Origin: a virus
Length of the DNA: 21,539 nucleotides
Direction: 5' to 3' (one strand)
Virus record (IMG/VR): IMGVR_UViG_3300024432_000717
Span: 1 to 21,539 of that record
Shown here one piece after another: positions 1 to 21,539 of the stretch. A model generated the notes under the pieces. That model saw nothing but the letters and a program-made list of their open reading frames with translations. It did not search any database and was not told the origin of the DNA. The position numbers and the translations under genes were made by a program. Positions within the stretch are counted from its first letter, which is position 1. Every line of letters begins with the position of its first letter.

Positions 1-127
1 TTGAAACTATACGTTGCTTATCAAAACGCAAGACCTATGGTAGCTCCATCAAACTGTAAGCATATAATCCATTTTAGCACGCCGGCGAGAAGTACAGCCT
101 TCCATGAAGCTTGGATTAGTGCTCAAA
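1..127. repeat. Terminal direct repeat, left copy (circular overlap)
   Basis: These 127 bases are identical to 21413-21539, and the reading frame of the large terminase continues unbroken through the join. The overlap has the size of an assembly k-mer, so it most likely marks a circular or circularly permuted molecule rather than physical terminal repeats. The non-redundant length is 21,412 bp. Confidence 0.95.
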
Positions 128-2600: not shown

Positions 2601-3053
2601 ATGCCAAAAACAAAAATAAGCGATTTAGGAAGTTCAATATGCGTAGATATGAATAATGAGAAGTTTATTCCAGCTTTAGGCAATGGTGCTACTGGAATTC
2701 CTGGTGATTTGTGTTATATAGTCCCCGGAACTGGTAAAATAGCATTATCGGATAAAACTACAGCAAAATTCTTCTCTGGTATTTTAATGGAATCCAAAAT
2801 AACTGGAACTGAAGCAATTATTGCTGATTTAGTGCCCTGTAGATTAGTTGTACCAAAATCGGGACACGATTACAGGATTAGATGTACTATTGTAGCAGTA
2901 GCAGACGACGAAATGGGTGGAGGAGTACATTTTGATGATGATGCAGGCAAGGGAGAAACGACTAATGTAACACTTGCCAACTCAAAACTTGGTAGATTAT
3001 CACTGCATGCAGCAATAGGCGATACAGTCGCCCAAATCACTTGGATTGAATAA
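2601..3053 (+). CDS. Putative head decoration protein, copy 1
   Basis: A 150-aa beta-rich protein, paralogous along its length to the next gene. Shared blocks are LGSS[IV]CVD, IPALGNG, IPGDLCYI, FSGILMESKITGTE, VPC[RK]LVVPKSGH and the C-terminal [QE]I[TN]WIE. Tandem small beta-proteins between portal/scaffold and major capsid genes are typically capsid decoration (cement) or capsid-fibre proteins, so that is the working call; I did not recognise a specific family. It starts one base after the preceding stop without a strong Shine-Dalgarno, so translation is probably coupled. The alternative is a minor head protein or a vertex protein. Confidence 0.6.
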   Translation: MPKTKISDLGSSICVDMNNEKFIPALGNGATGIPGDLCYIVPGTGKIALSDKTTAKFFSGILMESKITGTEAIIADLVPCRLVVPKSGHDYRIRCTIVAVADDEMGGGVHFDDDAGKGETTNVTLANSKLGRLSLHAAIGDTVAQITWIE

Positions 3054-3133: not shown

Positions 3134-3592
3134 ATGGCTAAAACAACTTTAAAAAGTTTAGGAAGCTCAGTGTGTGTAGACGATCAAGACGAGAAGATGA
3201 TACCAGCTTTAGGCAATGGAACAGCAATTCCTGGTGATTTGTGTTATATAATCCCAACTGCAGGTGCTACATTGGGAAGAGTAGGTCCAGCTAATGTAGG
3301 AGCTACAGAGTTCTTTTCAGGAATTTTAATGGAGTCTAAGATAACTGGAACTGAAACTGCACCTGCAGCGGACGTACCTTGTAAATTGGTAGTTCCAAAG
3401 TCAGGACATGGATATAGAATTAGAATTAATGTAGCTGGAGATACAGATGAAATAGGAACTGGTGTAACATTCTCAGGAACAAATTACAAAGGAGAAACGA
3501 CTGATGTCACTCTTGCGTTATCAAAGATTGGAAGACTTTCTTTAGAAGTTCTTGCTGGTGATTCTGTTGCCGAAATAAACTGGATTGAATAA
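3134..3592 (+). CDS. Putative head decoration protein, copy 2
   Basis: A 152-aa paralogue of the preceding gene, clearly a tandem duplication: the two share long conserved blocks and stretches of identical DNA (for example around 2700-2720 and 3229-3250, encoding PGDLCYI). It differs mainly in a loop near residues 45-58 and around residue 110. Same likely role, a capsid-surface or cement protein made in large amounts beside the major capsid gene. An AGGT motif lies about 12 nt before the ATG, and the spacer to copy 1 carries hairpins that could set a different expression level. The major capsid gene follows 11 bp downstream. Confidence 0.62.
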   Translation: MAKTTLKSLGSSVCVDDQDEKMIPALGNGTAIPGDLCYIIPTAGATLGRVGPANVGATEFFSGILMESKITGTETAPAADVPCKLVVPKSGHGYRIRINVAGDTDEIGTGVTFSGTNYKGETTDVTLALSKIGRLSLEVLAGDSVAEINWIE

Positions 3593-7708: not shown

Positions 7709-9172
7709 ATGGGAAAATATGAAAGGCACGACGCAGACGTGTTTCTGTGTCCAAGCAATCCACAAGAAACTTTTAACAACATCACTGGTGGGGCTATCCA
7801 AGCGCTCACAGCAGCTCAGGTATTACCCTATTCCTTAGTCGCGGACGCGTTCCCAGTCATTAAACCAAAAAGACAGGACGAGGAAGCACATGGAGTGGGA
7901 GGTGGAAGAAATCCTACTGGTATTTTAGAGAAACAATACGAAATAGGAGCTGGAACTATTCCGAACAAAACTATATTCGGATTAATGATTCCTAAGATTG
8001 GTGGGGATGTCACGCCAACTCACACGGCAGCTGAAGTAACAACTGTAACAGCTGTTGCAGACGATACAGATAGTTTGGACCTTACATACTTTGAATTTGA
8101 CGTTATGCTAGCAGCAGGAACCATTAAAAAATATTTTCTATGGATAGATATAGACGACGACGGAGCAGCACCAACACCAGCACCAGTTTGCTATGGAGAC
8201 GCAAGAACTGCAGTAAAAACAGTAGGATTAGCAACAGATGCAACGGCAACACAAGTGGCTACTGCAATAGTTGCAGCAATAGACGCCTTAACTGATGTAA
8301 GCGCAGCGGAGACCGCATATCCAGAATTTGCGATAACCAACGACCAAATTGGAGCAGTAGACGATACTCACGATGGCGCAGCACCAACTGGATTTATTTT
8401 TGTAACTTCAACTAACGGAAGGACTAAAATAGAAATTAACTTTCACGAAAACACAATTGAAGGACAAAACTTCGGACTTCACGTCCAGAGGATATTAACT
8501 GGTCAAGATAGAATCATGGATTTGTTTGGAATTACTATTGGAGTTTACGAAATGACTTGTGAAGAGGGAGGTGTAGCAGAAGAAAATATTGATTACACGG
8601 TAGCATCGTTTAAAACTGGGGGAGCAGATATTCCAAAAATGAGAGGTCCGGATGGAGTATTATGGACCAAAAAGAACACGCCATTTCCAAGCGCTAAAAA
8701 GAACTACGGATGGCATTCGTTTAATAAGAACTTCACGTTCACCTGCGGTGGAGCTTTACTATGCACTAAAAGAGCTTTCTCGGTGAGAATAGAAAACGAA
8801 ATTCAACACAACTACGACGGTGGGGGAGAGTTTGCTTCCAAAGCAGATTTTGGTCTAAGACACATCGAAATAGGAATAGAAGCCAAGATACAAGACGTAA
8901 CAATTCTCGAATTAGCAGACCAACACGTAAGCGATTACGCTAACGACATCGTACTCCAGATAAAGGGTATTAGAGGAGCAGATACCAACGATTACATCAT
9001 GTGGGACTTTAGCAAGCTGAGAATTCTTCCAATAGACGAAGCGATAGCAGCACCAGTAGATTGGATGGAAAAGTACAACATAAAGATGAAGTTAGCACCA
9101 GATTGCGTTGCTAAATGCACTATTGAAGGATATTTAAGTTTTGAATATTTTACAGGAAAGGATTGGATTTAA
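7709..9172 (+). CDS. Major tail tube protein with inserted domain
   Basis: 487 aa, long for a tail tube subunit. Tube proteins stack as hexameric rings round the tape measure. The N- and C-terminal parts look like the tube fold (early GxGGxRNPTG region; late ADIPKMRGPDG, FTFTCGGALLCTKRAFSVRIE, DVTILELADQ and a closing EYFTGKDWI). Between about residues 120 and 240 sits a probable insert whose pattern (KKYFLWIDIDDDGAAPTPAP, then ATQVATAIVAAIDAL) matches a repeatedly reused virion surface domain of the type 'yyFWfdvDg.G.dP...A..vAtAiaaAi'. Synteny (just before the chaperone pair) supports the call. The insert would project from the tail surface. Confidence 0.75.
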   Translation: MGKYERHDADVFLCPSNPQETFNNITGGAIQALTAAQVLPYSLVADAFPVIKPKRQDEEAHGVGGGRNPTGILEKQYEIGAGTIPNKTIFGLMIPKIGGDVTPTHTAAEVTTVTAVADDTDSLDLTYFEFDVMLAAGTIKKYFLWIDIDDDGAAPTPAPVCYGDARTAVKTVGLATDATATQVATAIVAAIDALTDVSAAETAYPEFAITNDQIGAVDDTHDGAAPTGFIFVTSTNGRTKIEINFHENTIEGQNFGLHVQRILTGQDRIMDLFGITIGVYEMTCEEGGVAEENIDYTVASFKTGGADIPKMRGPDGVLWTKKNTPFPSAKKNYGWHSFNKNFTFTCGGALLCTKRAFSVRIENEIQHNYDGGGEFASKADFGLRHIEIGIEAKIQDVTILELADQHVSDYANDIVLQIKGIRGADTNDYIMWDFSKLRILPIDEAIAAPVDWMEKYNIKMKLAPDCVAKCTIEGYLSFEYFTGKDWI

Positions 9173-9331
9173 ATGGATGTTATAGACATAAAAGAAGAGT
9201 TAAAAAAATTTAATAAGAATTTCGTTTATTTTTACATAGGTCCGGAAAAACCTAAATATATAGAAATTGAAAATAAAAAAGGTGTTAAAATATGGGAAAA
9301 ACAGAAGAGTTTGATTTTGGAGGAAATGTAA
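9173..9331 (+). CDS. Small ORF (52 aa) overlapping the chaperone start
   Basis: ATG 9173 follows the tail tube stop directly and the frame runs to TAA 9329-9331, overlapping the next gene by 40 bp in another frame. The product has an ordinary composition (MDVIDIKEELKKFNKNFVYF at the N-terminus, then a charged C-terminus) and an AAGGA-like motif lies shortly upstream. Ribosomes ending here could reinitiate on the chaperone gene. The function is unknown, and it may only serve coupling. Confidence 0.5.
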   Translation: MDVIDIKEELKKFNKNFVYFYIGPEKPKYIEIENKKGVKIWEKQKSLILEEM

Positions 9332-9684
9332 TTAAGTTTTTTTCGAGATTGCCTTACAGGATGGAATGTAAATTGGAAGAATTAATCGTTAAAATGTCCG
9401 AAGGTTTGGAAGGAAAGTTATCCGATTTTGAGGATTTAAACGTCGCTAACATGGACATATCCGACTTAAAGGGTTTCGATATGACCAAAAAAATAGCCAT
9501 AAACGATTATCTTTTGACAAATGCGATACGTGATCCAGAAATTTCAGAGGGGGATTTAGATAACTTCGATCACCCTTTAAACGATTATTTTAAGGAGATT
9601 GGGGATTATTTGTTTGACAAATATATAACTCAATATTCTGAGAAAACGCAAGTAAAAAAAAAGCTTACGACATCTCCAAACTAA
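9292..9684 (+). CDS. Tail assembly chaperone, short form (gpG-like)
   Basis: 130 aa with a GGTG Shine-Dalgarno (9280-9283). It is acidic and mixed alpha/beta, lying between tail tube and tape measure genes, the invariable place of the lambda gpG-type tail assembly chaperone that coats the tape measure during tail assembly. Its last codons run through nine A residues (9654-9662) followed by G, giving the perfect slippery heptamer A_AAA_AAG at 9657-9663 in this frame, 21 bases before its stop. A downstream open frame without its own start continues to 9899, the arrangement of gpG/gpGT pairs. The short form should be the major product. Confidence 0.8.
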   Translation: MGKTEEFDFGGNVIKFFSRLPYRMECKLEELIVKMSEGLEGKLSDFEDLNVANMDISDLKGFDMTKKIAINDYLLTNAIRDPEISEGDLDNFDHPLNDYFKEIGDYLFDKYITQYSEKTQVKKKLTTSPN

Positions 9685-9899
9685 GCACGACCTCAGCGCG
9701 GGTAGGGTGGGCACAAAGGAACCCGATAGAGTTTAGGTGGTTAATGGAAATGATGGTCAGAAAAGAACTGGGTGGATATTGTCCGAGAGATCCGTTAAAG
9801 TTCGCGTTTATAGCGTCTGTAATAGCCTTAAACTACGAAAAAGAGGAAAAAACAAATACGGAAGGAAGGTTGCAAAATTTAATAAATAGGAGCAAATAA
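9292..9899 (+). CDS. Tail assembly chaperone, -1 frameshift form (gpGT-like)
   Basis: A -1 slip on A_AAA_AAG (9657-9663) joins 124 residues of the short form to 78 more, about 202 aa. The second frame is open from 9642 to TAA 9897-9899, has no ATG before 9744 and no Shine-Dalgarno, and reads as protein across the whole overlap (AYDISKLSTTSARVGWAQRN, then IEFRWLMEMMVRKELGG and CPRDPLKFAFIASVIALNY). In lambda-like tails the T extension binds the tube protein and recruits it to the tape measure; both forms are needed. A GC-rich stretch (9691-9712) directly downstream might stimulate the slip. The short form ends at 9684. Confidence 0.8.
9657..9663 (+). other. Programmed -1 frameshift site A_AAA_AAG
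   Basis: The heptamer in the zero frame of the gpG-like gene is A_AAA_AAG, the classic tandem-slippage sequence also used in bacterial dnaX. Slipping back one base leads from a stop 21 bases downstream into the long second frame. Confidence 0.82.
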
Positions 9900-10694
9900 A
9901 TGGTATTACCAATAGGATTAATAACAGGGGTTTTTAGCGCAATAGCCAAGACCAAGGCTAAATCTTGGAAGGCCATGAAGGGAGCCATGGGGGCAGTTAA
10001 ATCTGCTGCCGGGCCTATGGCATCGATAGCTAATGCCCTACAAGTTTTCGCTCCTATAATGAAAGTCGTTAACGCTCTATTTAAGGTACTTGGCGGCAAA
10101 ATATTAGTGGCTTTATTGCCGGTTTTGGAACCTCTTTTAGCGATGTTGTCCAGTCCTGAGATGTTGGCGTTAATGACGGATATAGCAGAGATTATAGCCA
10201 TTTCTTTAGAACCCGCGTTCGAAATCCTAACAGACGTTTTAAAAATATCGATACCGATATTAAAGAAAGTAACGGAATTTATTTTGAAAAACGAATGGGC
10301 ATTAAATTTGTTGATATTAGTTTTATCTCCGTTACTATTTTTATTAAAATTACTCACAGATAATTGGGACGATATAGCTGCAGTTCTTAAAGTCGTTGGA
10401 AATGCCTTTATTTGGTTTGTTAACGCTATAATAGATTCGATAAACACGCTAATGAACGCGTTAACCCTCGATACTTGGGCAAACATTCCTAACGTTCCGT
10501 ACCTTCAAAGGGGTACGCCTTACGTGCCTCGGACCGGTCCTTACATTCTACATCGAGGCGAGGAAGTAATTCCAGCGGGAAAGAAAGGTAAGGGAGAGAT
10601 TCACGTTCACATAGACCTAAGAAACGCAGTAGTGGATAACGTCGATAGGTTGTCCCAGCGAATAGCAGAGGCGGTGTTGATACAGATTGGTTAG
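9900..10694 (+). CDS. Tape measure protein (very short)
   Basis: 264 aa with AGGAG (9888-9892) before ATG 9900. It is rich in alanine, leucine and isoleucine with several long hydrophobic helices (for example IALSLEP-type and LNLLILVLSPLLFLLKLLTD near residues 140-160), as in tape measure proteins, which span the tail lumen and set its length. The C-terminal motif GTPYVPRTGPYILHRGEEVI is the family's typical 'G....p..llHrGEeVIP' element, and a basic linker and HVHIDLRNA segment follow. By the usual rule of about 1.5 angstrom per residue the tail would be only some 40 nm. It directly follows the chaperone pair, as expected. Confidence 0.85.
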   Translation: MVLPIGLITGVFSAIAKTKAKSWKAMKGAMGAVKSAAGPMASIANALQVFAPIMKVVNALFKVLGGKILVALLPVLEPLLAMLSSPEMLALMTDIAEIIAISLEPAFEILTDVLKISIPILKKVTEFILKNEWALNLLILVLSPLLFLLKLLTDNWDDIAAVLKVVGNAFIWFVNAIIDSINTLMNALTLDTWANIPNVPYLQRGTPYVPRTGPYILHRGEEVIPAGKKGKGEIHVHIDLRNAVVDNVDRLSQRIAEAVLIQIG

Positions 10695-11441: not shown

Positions 11442-14365
11442 AAGTTTATCTCTACGATGTGTTCCATAGATGCGACTCTGTTGTGGATTGGACTCCTTTT
11501 GATTGTTCTATCGAAATTGATACAACTGAAAAAGTAGAGGGAATAGGCTCTATAAAAATGACTTCTGACGATGTTGCTAATTCTTATATGCGATACAATA
11601 GAACGGTTGATTGGTCGGAATTTAAAACTATTACCTTTTCCGTTTATCATCCAGGTTATACGAACGAGATAGGTGAAATTGGGTTATATACCGACGCAGG
11701 TAACTATAAAGTTTGGAACTTTGATTTTGCGGCCGAATGGACTGAAATAACGATAGATTTGACTTCTACTCCAGATAGTTCTTTAGGAACTTTAGATTTA
11801 TCAAATATAAACTATATTTTTGTAAGCGAAGTCGAATTTGAAACTCCTGGAGAGGATTATTATTTCGATTTTTTTAGAGGTAAATCTATCGATGTTACTT
11901 CAGACATTATCTACATGAAGATTACGGAAGAATTGGGAATGCCTTCCATTGCCGAATTAAAAATTAAAGGAGAGTCTTTAGACCGTTTTAACGCGGGTTT
12001 AGAGCTTGAAATATACGACGCAGACGACGTACTATCTTGGACCGGGAGAATCTTGTATCCCGAATCGGTTTTAGAGGGAACTAAGGTCGTAGGCACATTA
12101 AAAGCGGTGGGCTCTAATTCGCAGTTTAATAATATTTATAGAAAAAATTATACAACTGCAAGGGCTTCGGATTACGTACTTAAGGACGTAATAGATAGCG
12201 CACTACCCAAGTTTACTTACGATGACGAGATAGACGATTTTAGCGCTTTAACTTTTAAATATGACATGAAAACAAAAGTACAAAAATTGTCTAACTACCT
12301 GGCGATGTTAGAAAGAGCAGTAATTCATTATAAGCCAGGCGAAGAAATGTTTTTTAACAAATACAACAACTTAACGGCTTCTGGGAAGTCTTGGAATCAA
12401 AACACTACTAAAGTCAAGATTGTTAATTACACTCCCGCAGCAAATAGGTACATAACAAGGACGCCCGTTATCGGGGCAAACAACGACTTAGGGCAGGTAT
12501 ATTACGTTGGAAAAGCTTCCGATTCTGCCGTTCAGAAATACGGAATAAATCAATTGCAACCTTGGAGAGATTCGGAAATAACCAATTACACGGAAGCCAA
12601 ACAGTTAGGTGACAATTTACTTGCTATATATTCTATGGATACTCAAATGATTTCGTTGCTTACTGTTGGGAAGAAACACGTTCAAGTGGGATATACAATC
12701 GAATTTGCGTGGACAGGGGTATTTTCTATAACTCAAGCAGATTTCTTAGTAACTAAAAGAGTTTGGTATCCTATGAACGATATATGCGAAATCGAACTCA
12801 CGGATAACATATTAACGAGAAAAGCGTTTAACATAAGAGTTATTAACAAATTTTACGACGAAGACGCTCAACAGAGCTACGACAAGCCTGACGTTCCAGA
12901 ATCCACTATGGACGGAGTTGTTCAACCGTTAGTGAGTATTCAAGAATTAAGAGTAGCGGGTATTGGTGGCGCTCATACCTTAGCAAGTCATACTTCTAAA
13001 ACTCATCAAGAATTAACCGATTATAACGCGGAAGCTGACGTAAAACATCTTACTAACGCTCAAGTAGCCGCTTTACACGCAGTTTTAACTAATTTAACTC
13101 AATTGGGTACAAGAAATCACAACGATTTACAAAATATAAGTGCGGATGACATTAAACACATTACAGCCGCACAATTAGGAGCGCTTCATGCTATTGTAGT
13201 TGCTGGTGATTTAGATCACAACGATTTAGCTAATCTTAATGCTGGAGATGTTTATGAACACATAAGCCAAGCTCAAAAGAATGCACTTCACGCTATTGTT
13301 GTTGCGGGAGATTTACTTCATAATAGTTTAGATGGATTGAATGCTGGAGATGTATATGAGCATTTATCAGCTGCTCAAGTGGCAGCATTACACGCTCAGT
13401 TAACAAATCTCACTGAATTAGGTACAAGGAATCATAACGACTTACAAAATATTGACGTAGGAGATATTAATCATTTAACCGATGTTCAAGTAGCTGCGCT
13501 TCACGCCGTGGCTCACGTGTTAGCAACGACAGGACCGCACACAGGAACTCTACCGTGGACAGACTTGAACAAAGCTGGTTCTACTATAAACGATATAGTC
13601 GATGTAGTTATAATTGCTCAAGCAGATAACGAGGTTTTGGCTTGGGATGTAGGAGCAGAGAAATGGATAAATCAAACTCCAGCAGAAGCGGGATTGGCTA
13701 CCTCTGGGCAACTCCACACCCGTTTACACGCTATAACAGACGTTCTCGACCATTCGGCAAGCAATTGGAAGTTATTTTATTCGGATGGAGCAGGGCACGT
13801 AATAGAGTTGGCACTTGGAGCTGACGGCGAAGTTCTTACAAGCACTGGGGCGGCATCTGCACCCGCTTTTGAAGCTGCTGGCGGTGCTGGTGCGAGCGAA
13901 GCTTACGTAAACGCTGCTACCATGATTGGTTCGGCAAATTCGGAATACGTAGTTTGTACGTACAACGAACACACAAAGACCACGAAAGCGGTAAGATATT
14001 GGGGGCAAGGTCTTTCGAACGTAGACGGCTCTAATCCTCAAATCTATTTTGTGTTACCTTTATCAACGAATAGGGGCGGAAAGAAATTATACATAGACGG
14101 GATGAAACTTGCAATTCCCGACGCAGACGCTAACAATTACGTTATGCAAACTGATTTATATGGATATACTTATGCTGGTGGACGCGTCACTATAGATGCA
14201 AACCCAACAGATTATACCGTACCTCAAGAAGTAGAAGACGGGTACGGAACGGTTTACGACGTATCAGGTTACGATTACGTAGGCGTTGCAGTGAGCATGT
14301 TTGTAGATACTGCGAGCGCTTGCGAGATAGGAAACCCGCTATTAGATTGTTATTACGACGATTAA
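11438..14365 (+). CDS. Tail hub-fibre fusion, receptor-binding candidate
   Basis: 975 aa, the largest gene. Residues 1-145 look like a carbohydrate-binding jelly roll (DxTxxVEGIGSIKM, then FKTITFSVYHPG and WTEITIDLTSTP, typical of such modules). Residues 150-470 resemble the tail hub (gp27/Tal-like) region, with IAELKIKGESLDRFNAGLEL, WTGRIL and the WRDSEITNYTEAKQLGDNLL segment. Residues 522-698 hold five repeats of about 32-38 aa built on HNDLxNLxAGDVYEHLxxAQxxALHA, a phage fibre shaft pattern. A linker and a glycine-rich segment (about 805-815) precede a beta-rich C-terminal tip that probably binds the host surface. Combining hub, fibre and sugar-binding domain in one chain suits a minimal tail. 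Confidence 0.78.
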   Translation: MKVYLYDVFHRCDSVVDWTPFDCSIEIDTTEKVEGIGSIKMTSDDVANSYMRYNRTVDWSEFKTITFSVYHPGYTNEIGEIGLYTDAGNYKVWNFDFAAEWTEITIDLTSTPDSSLGTLDLSNINYIFVSEVEFETPGEDYYFDFFRGKSIDVTSDIIYMKITEELGMPSIAELKIKGESLDRFNAGLELEIYDADDVLSWTGRILYPESVLEGTKVVGTLKAVGSNSQFNNIYRKNYTTARASDYVLKDVIDSALPKFTYDDEIDDFSALTFKYDMKTKVQKLSNYLAMLERAVIHYKPGEEMFFNKYNNLTASGKSWNQNTTKVKIVNYTPAANRYITRTPVIGANNDLGQVYYVGKASDSAVQKYGINQLQPWRDSEITNYTEAKQLGDNLLAIYSMDTQMISLLTVGKKHVQVGYTIEFAWTGVFSITQADFLVTKRVWYPMNDICEIELTDNILTRKAFNIRVINKFYDEDAQQSYDKPDVPESTMDGVVQPLVSIQELRVAGIGGAHTLASHTSKTHQELTDYNAEADVKHLTNAQVAALHAVLTNLTQLGTRNHNDLQNISADDIKHITAAQLGALHAIVVAGDLDHNDLANLNAGDVYEHISQAQKNALHAIVVAGDLLHNSLDGLNAGDVYEHLSAAQVAALHAQLTNLTELGTRNHNDLQNIDVGDINHLTDVQVAALHAVAHVLATTGPHTGTLPWTDLNKAGSTINDIVDVVIIAQADNEVLAWDVGAEKWINQTPAEAGLATSGQLHTRLHAITDVLDHSASNWKLFYSDGAGHVIELALGADGEVLTSTGAASAPAFEAAGGAGASEAYVNAATMIGSANSEYVVCTYNEHTKTTKAVRYWGQGLSNVDGSNPQIYFVLPLSTNRGGKKLYIDGMKLAIPDADANNYVMQTDLYGYTYAGGRVTIDANPTDYTVPQEVEDGYGTVYDVSGYDYVGVAVSMFVDTASACEIGNPLLDCYYDD
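13004..13533 (+). repeat. Five-fold coding repeat in the fibre shaft
   Basis: Five imperfect protein repeats on the theme HNDL-(8-11)-EHL-(3)-AQ-(4)-LHA. Units 2 and 5 and units 3 and 4 are closest at DNA level (GGTACAAG.AATCA.AACGA occurs twice, near 13108 and 13421), suggesting duplication and possible recombination between units. Confidence 0.75.
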
Positions 14366-20907: not shown

Positions 20908-21539
20908 GTTTGCAGCTCAATTGCTTGACATGTGGGAGTCAGGTAATTACCACATACTTGACTTGTTCAGGATGTATATGGGTTTCTTAAGAACGTTTGG
21001 AAGACATACTCAGAAGCACGATATGCGTAGATGTACTCCATGGCAAATGAAGGATATGGAGATGGCCATCTGGAACGATAAGATTGATTACACCAAAATA
21101 CCACTTGAGACCGTTCATAACAAGAATAGAAGGAGCGGTAAGACTAAGGACGCTACTCGCTTAGCAGTATTCTTTTCTCTATTAAATTTAGAAGTTAAGT
21201 GGAGATCTGCGTATATGGCCCAACAAAACATGGCTAAAGTCTGGTTTCTAATGAACCCATTTGTTAGAGAGATTAAATATTTAGACAATTCTGTTCACTT
21301 ATATGGACCGTCTATTTATCCACTTGATTTAGCAGTGTTGAGTCCGGCTAATGTTACTGGAGTGGAGTGCGATTGCGTCTTCTTTGACGAAGGCGGTTGG
21401 GTATTTGAACGCTTGAAACTATACGTTGCTTATCAAAACGCAAGACCTATGGTAGCTCCATCAAACTGTAAGCATATAATCCATTTTAGCACGCCGGCGA
21501 GAAGTACAGCCTTCCATGAAGCTTGGATTAGTGCTCAAA
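20879..21539 (+). CDS. terL: Large terminase subunit, N-terminal part (ATPase domain)
   Basis: Continues in frame across the circular junction into 1-873. I prefer TTG 20879, ten bases after GGAGAAG and overlapping the preceding gene by 29 bp; ATG 20930 is the alternative and lacks a ribosome site. Numbered from the TTG, NRRSGKTK at residues 83-90 is the Walker A-like motif (R..GKT) and CDCVFFDE at 164-171 is Walker B with the catalytic Asp-Glu. A CTPWQMKDMEMAIWND segment ahead resembles the adenine-binding 'PW..Q' motif of terminases. The ATPase drives DNA packaging into the prohead. Bases 21413-21539 duplicate the window start. Confidence 0.93.
   Translation, partial: MVSLSNLAAKFAAQLLDMWESGNYHILDLFRMYMGFLRTFGRHTQKHDMRRCTPWQMKDMEMAIWNDKIDYTKIPLETVHNKNRRSGKTKDATRLAVFFSLLNLEVKWRSAYMAQQNMAKVWFLMNPFVREIKYLDNSVHLYGPSIYPLDLAVLSPANVTGVECDCVFFDEGGWVFERLKLYVAYQNARPMVAPSNCKHIIHFSTPARSTAFHEAWISAQ
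21413..21539. repeat. Terminal direct repeat, right copy
   Basis: Identical to 1-127; see the left copy. Remove one copy to obtain the non-redundant circular map. Confidence 0.95.

Follow-up and report, generated by a model that had tools for sequence, protein, structure and literature searches.

We predict that a viral record of 21,539 nucleotides (IMG/VR record IMGVR_UViG_3300024432_000717, positions 1 to 21,539; "the window" below means this whole stretch) carries a tail assembly chaperone gene expressed through a -1 frameshift. The gene lies at 9292-9899, and lambda G/GT-type recoding by ribosomal slippage on a run of nine adenines (A9) is the probable explanation. Most ribosomes would read 9292-9684 and make a 130 amino acid G-like chaperone. 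A minority would shift by -1 at the AAA-AAA-AAG lysine codons of the A9 run and continue in the -1 frame to 9899, producing a 202 amino acid GT-like fusion. By analogy with lambda, many copies of the G-like protein would coat the tape measure and a few copies of the fusion would recruit the tail-tube subunit. The gene architecture, the conserved phase of the slippery heptamer and coding selection on the -1 frame beginning at the shift site are directly visible when the window is aligned with a second viral contig (IMGVR_UViG_3300005253_002472, 14.4 kb; hereafter L001), the sole relative compared.

Predicted shift site and reading frames

The A9 run occupies 9654-9662 and is followed by G9663. 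A first-pass annotation of the window had placed an A_AAA_AAG heptamer at 9657-9663, in frame and close to the stop of the short frame, and the codon phase bears this out. The zero-frame codons at the run are GTA (9652), AAA (9655), AAA (9658) and AAG (9661), followed by CTT, and the zero-frame stop is a TAA at 9682-9684 that ends 21 nucleotides 3′ of the heptamer. The run contains a second in-frame heptamer, A_AAA_AAA, at 9654-9660. The -1 frame has no stop from 9642 to 9896; its stop is at 9897-9899, and the ATG of the next gene follows directly at 9900. The annotation also described this frame as open from 9642 to 9899 and lacking a start of its own. The first part stands and the second is true of the full frame, but there are internal ATG codons at 9744, 9750 and 9753. 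The one at 9744 is the earliest ATG, GTG or TTG in the frame, 27 codons 3′ of the heptamer.

The window has four in-frame A_AAA_AAG heptamers among 4,568 codons, and L001 has three among 3,877. Of these sites just two, homologous to one another, lead into a long open -1 frame (80 codons in each case); at the others it extends for 4-25 codons. The window has an A11 run with an in-frame A_AAA_AAG at 2345-2355, in a lysine-rich gene (2138-2599), where the -1 frame closes after 25 codons.

L001 keeps the gene order around the shift gene. Its counterpart gene (8154-8573) carries A_AAA_AAG in identical phase at an A10 run, and its -1 frame ends in LQNLINRSK, as in the window. Conservation of the heptamer, which the first-pass annotation had proposed to check in relatives, is seen in this one relative. 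Two independent contigs share the -1 transition, each in phase with a dnaX-type heptamer and in a gene located between the positions of tail tube and tape measure. Neither a stop in the -1 frame nor a separate start at its head, either of which the annotation had named as counting against it, is present in L001.

Between the window and L001, identity is 58% ahead of the shift, 69% in the -1 frame and 62% over the whole fusion. The differences 3′ of the heptamer are distributed 17, 18 and 39 over the first, second and third codon positions of the -1 frame; over this stretch the ratio of nonsynonymous to synonymous differences (pN/pS) comes to 0.30 when read in the -1 frame, against 1.46 for the zero frame and 1.10 for the +1 frame. 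The tail of the zero frame after the heptamer is not conserved, with a stop after 6 codons in the window and after 26 in L001. When the observed substitutions were redistributed at random, 33 ± 3 of the -1-frame residues remained identical versus the 54 observed, a number reached in 0 of 20,000 trials. The 27 codons of the -1 frame that precede any start contain no stop and encode 16 residues identical to L001, also beyond all 20,000 trials (P<1/20,000). Because these 27 codons and the whole -1 frame are conserved beyond chance, the alignment indicates translation of the -1 frame all the way from the shift region. With gene order, heptamer phase and the -1 frame kept in L001, and conserved from the heptamer on, this comparison excludes, for practical purposes, both an open frame arising by chance and an indel introduced by sequencing.

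Features of the window around the shift site, with the evidence for each
Feature	Coordinates	Strand	Evidence
Probable major tail (tube) protein, 487 amino acids	7709..9172	+	Position only; 79% identical in L001
Small open reading frame (ORF), 52 amino acids, between tail tube and chaperone, overlapping the chaperone start	9173..9331	+	ORF; L001 has a small ORF (7975-8157) in the same place, with no obvious likeness
Putative G-like tail assembly chaperone, zero-frame product, 130 amino acids	9292..9684	+	ORF; part before the shift 58% identical to L001
Synonymous-site conservation block, in or beside a possible hairpin (9593-9639)	9607..9646	+	Tentative, post hoc
A9 run and G, two in-frame slippery heptamers	9654..9663	+	L001: A10 and G, identical phase
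-1 frame (T-like domain), fusion of 202 amino acids	9664..9899	+	54/78 residues as in L001; codon-position differences 17/18/39
Probable tape measure protein, short, 264 amino acids	9900..10694	+	Weak PHROG matches and position

Probable agent of the predicted shift and other readings

The frameshift is well supported by the comparison of the two contigs. We infer the slip itself from this pattern, and the ribosome is the likelier agent. RNA polymerase might instead slip on the A9 and A10 runs and add one A to a fraction of the mRNAs, from which ordinary translation would give an identical fusion. Such slippage is documented for A/T runs in bacteria (PMC1088944), both viruses have longer runs than the heptamer requires, and the search downstream revealed no ribosomal stimulator. 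We nevertheless consider this unlikely, as the phase of A_AAA_AAG is exactly kept in both viruses, psiM2 (a virus of Methanothermobacter marburgensis, described below) has a like arrangement with an A7 run only, and the A11 run elsewhere in the window lacks a useful -1 frame, which indicates that long runs are tolerated.

Two separate proteins could also be made, the second starting within the -1 frame at ATG 9750 or 9753 behind an AGGTG just upstream of 9744. An AGGTGG and an ATGATG are conserved in L001, about 10 nucleotides apart and thus compatible with a Shine-Dalgarno start, but both motifs simply encode conserved residues as well. Since the 27 codons ahead of any start are themselves conserved as protein, such a start is very unlikely to account for the second frame, and a shorter product could exist alongside the fusion. 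It is scarcely credible that a single gene has been broken here or that the A run holds an indel error: homopolymer runs are error-prone, but the frame relation is identical in two contigs with different run lengths and purifying selection acts on both frames. The read-level indel raised by the first-pass annotation would have to recur in both A9 and A10.

Several points weigh against ribosomal recoding of a chaperone gene. A downstream stem-loop stimulator was not detected above shuffled sequences in the window or L001 (z +1.1 to -0.5; pseudoknots were not searched separately), and there is no strong Shine-Dalgarno-like stimulator 5′ of the shift site. A lysine tRNA specific for AAG, with a CUU anticodon, is common in archaea, and it is expected to re-pair poorly with AAA at A_AAA_AAG. 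L001 was the sole relative in scans of viral contigs with chaperone, tail tube, tape measure, distal tail, baseplate and T-domain queries. For both halves of the fusion, searches of Pfam, PHROG, NCBIfam and PDB gave no convincing family match, and the shift is predicted from sequence.

The double heptamer matters in this context, because the in-frame A_AAA_AAA would escape the re-pairing problem of the AAG-specific tRNA, a tRNA that reads AAA being sufficient. The length of the run may alone be enough for the shift, given that magnesium-chelatase gene cassettes with 7, 9 and 11 A shift at 10%, 40% and 63% in E. coli (PMC3711429).

No Rfam match was found. At 9607-9646, 10 of 10 codons with identical amino acids also use the same codon versus 5.2 expected (nominal p=0.0009 for a region picked post hoc). 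The sequences of both viruses permit a hairpin at 9593-9639 with every pair intact. Its folding relative to shuffles gives z -2.57 in the window and is not stronger than shuffles in L001 (z -0.80). We regard this 5′ block and hairpin as a lead only for a frameshift element, drawn from the two sequences compared.

More speculatively, in this unrelated archaeal virus group the ratio of G to GT could be set by run length alone (A9 or A10, two overlapping heptamers and no downstream stimulator), perhaps aided by the 5′ hairpin in the RNA and by some RNA-polymerase slippage. The ratio would then be adjusted to a very short tape measure, for which a larger proportion of fusion is required. We hold this combined scheme to be doubtful.

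Neighbouring genes, proposed chaperone role and probable host

The shift gene sits between a gene assigned to the tail tube by position only and a gene whose product (9900-10694) has weak matches to seven PHROG tape-measure families (best E=0.0014). PHROG, Pfam and PDB searches with the probable tail tube protein (7709-9172) found no match. L001 contains genes with terminase, portal and weak capsid-like matches.

The first-pass annotation had proposed comparing both frames with tail assembly chaperones. No known tail assembly chaperone profile was among the Pfam, PHROG, NCBIfam or PDB matches, and tblastn of both halves against phage records found no match. We infer the chaperone function from position and frameshift architecture, because neither half convincingly matches a known family, structure or phage record. 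The structure model of the N domain is too poor for use (predicted local distance difference test, pLDDT, 41). The model of the T domain (pLDDT 74) is all helical and has no significant fold match.

The window, from a small tailed virus, appears to have an archaeal host, the more likely assignment given its gene-expression signals. At three gene starts (14726, 19834 and 20521) a Shine-Dalgarno sequence is missing and a TATA box lies at -27 to -31, where leaderless archaeal transcripts would be expected to have one. AGGTGA-like Shine-Dalgarno sites precede many of the other starts in the window, and 152 of 198 arginine codons are AGA or AGG. The archaeal-type virus of the first-pass annotation is supported indirectly by these features; no host genome, provirus or named archaeal relative was found in the viral, genome or phage collections. 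Scans of genome contigs for relatives found no match, and tblastn against phages found remote terminase matches only. No tRNA genes were found in the window. In the literature searched, no relevant paper mentions the metagenome number of L001, which might have pointed to its environment.

Window positions 1-127 and 21413-21539 form an exact 127-base terminal direct repeat across which the terminase large-subunit frame runs, so the record probably represents a single complete genome of about 21.4 kb, circular or circularly permuted. Two adjacent genes (2601-3053 and 3134-3592) encode products that are 60% identical, a tandem duplication, perhaps of head decoration proteins.

Relation to known frameshift systems

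The first-pass annotation held that an intact dnaX-type slippery site in an archaeal virus would show that this recoding also works on archaeal ribosomes. As a claim of novelty this is overstated, because -1 frameshifting has been demonstrated for fucA of Sulfolobus solfataricus, at A_AAA_AAT (PMC8037382), and is predicted for the tail assembly chaperones of haloarchaeal viruses (PMC8211752, PMC5009743). The principle is already known for archaea. With the window, the G/GT frameshift pattern extends to a probably archaeal virus group that is unrelated in sequence, and the shift there has evolutionary evidence behind it.

A frameshift of the lambda gpG/gpGT type is widely conserved in the tail assembly genes of tailed phages (Xu, Hendrix and Duda 2004, cited in PMC3711429; PMC5009743). 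The window resembles lambda in placing the gene in the interval between the probable tail tube and tape measure and in the predicted short zero-frame product with a minor -1 fusion. It differs in having no detectable sequence relation to lambda, a long A run as slippery site and a probable tape measure of only 264 amino acids.

A -1 frameshift in the tail assembly chaperone is also predicted for the haloarchaeal viruses HVTV-1, HCTV-1, HCTV-2 and HCTV-5 (PMC8211752, PMC5009743), which is the likeness of these viruses to the window. In HCTV-2 (KC292028) a joined tail assembly chaperone is annotated at a similar gene position, with A_AAA_AAC in frame. A profile built from the window had no match in HCTV-1, HCTV-2, HCTV-5 or psiM2. 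Bacterial dnaX (A_AAA_AAG) and Sulfolobus fucA share the A-rich heptamer with the window, but they are different genes with a different purpose, and fucA has rare codons and a putative stem-loop.

A parallel with a named archaeal host is found in psiM2 (AF065411). Its ORF19 (13209-13778) lies between structural ORF18 and tail protein ORF21, the latter in the tape-measure position, and has an in-frame A_AAA_AAG at 13712-13718 in an A7 run only. The -1 frame after ORF19 is open to about 13948 (13209-13951 together with ORF19), and no gene is annotated there in the psiM2 or psiM100 record. The psiM100 prophage (AF301375, 949-1682) keeps this frame at about 50% identity (tblastn 2e-12); it is without A_AAA_AAG and has a weaker candidate site, G_AAA_AAG. 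In the part of the literature that was searched, we found no published account of the -1 frame of psiM2 or psiM100. With a named archaeal host, the A_AAA_AAG heptamer in psiM2 and a conserved -1 frame that lacks annotation, this case would allow a dnaX-type site to be tested in Methanothermobacter; such a test would be valuable because fucA was in 2021 called the sole archaeal gene with demonstrated -1 frameshifting (PMC8037382). The T domains of the window and psiM2 have no detectable homology. The two systems are alike in gene position, in the in-frame A_AAA_AAG of psiM2 and in a conserved open -1 frame, and they differ in the A7 run, in the missing A_AAA_AAG of psiM100 and in the lack of annotation for the psiM2 and psiM100 -1 frame.
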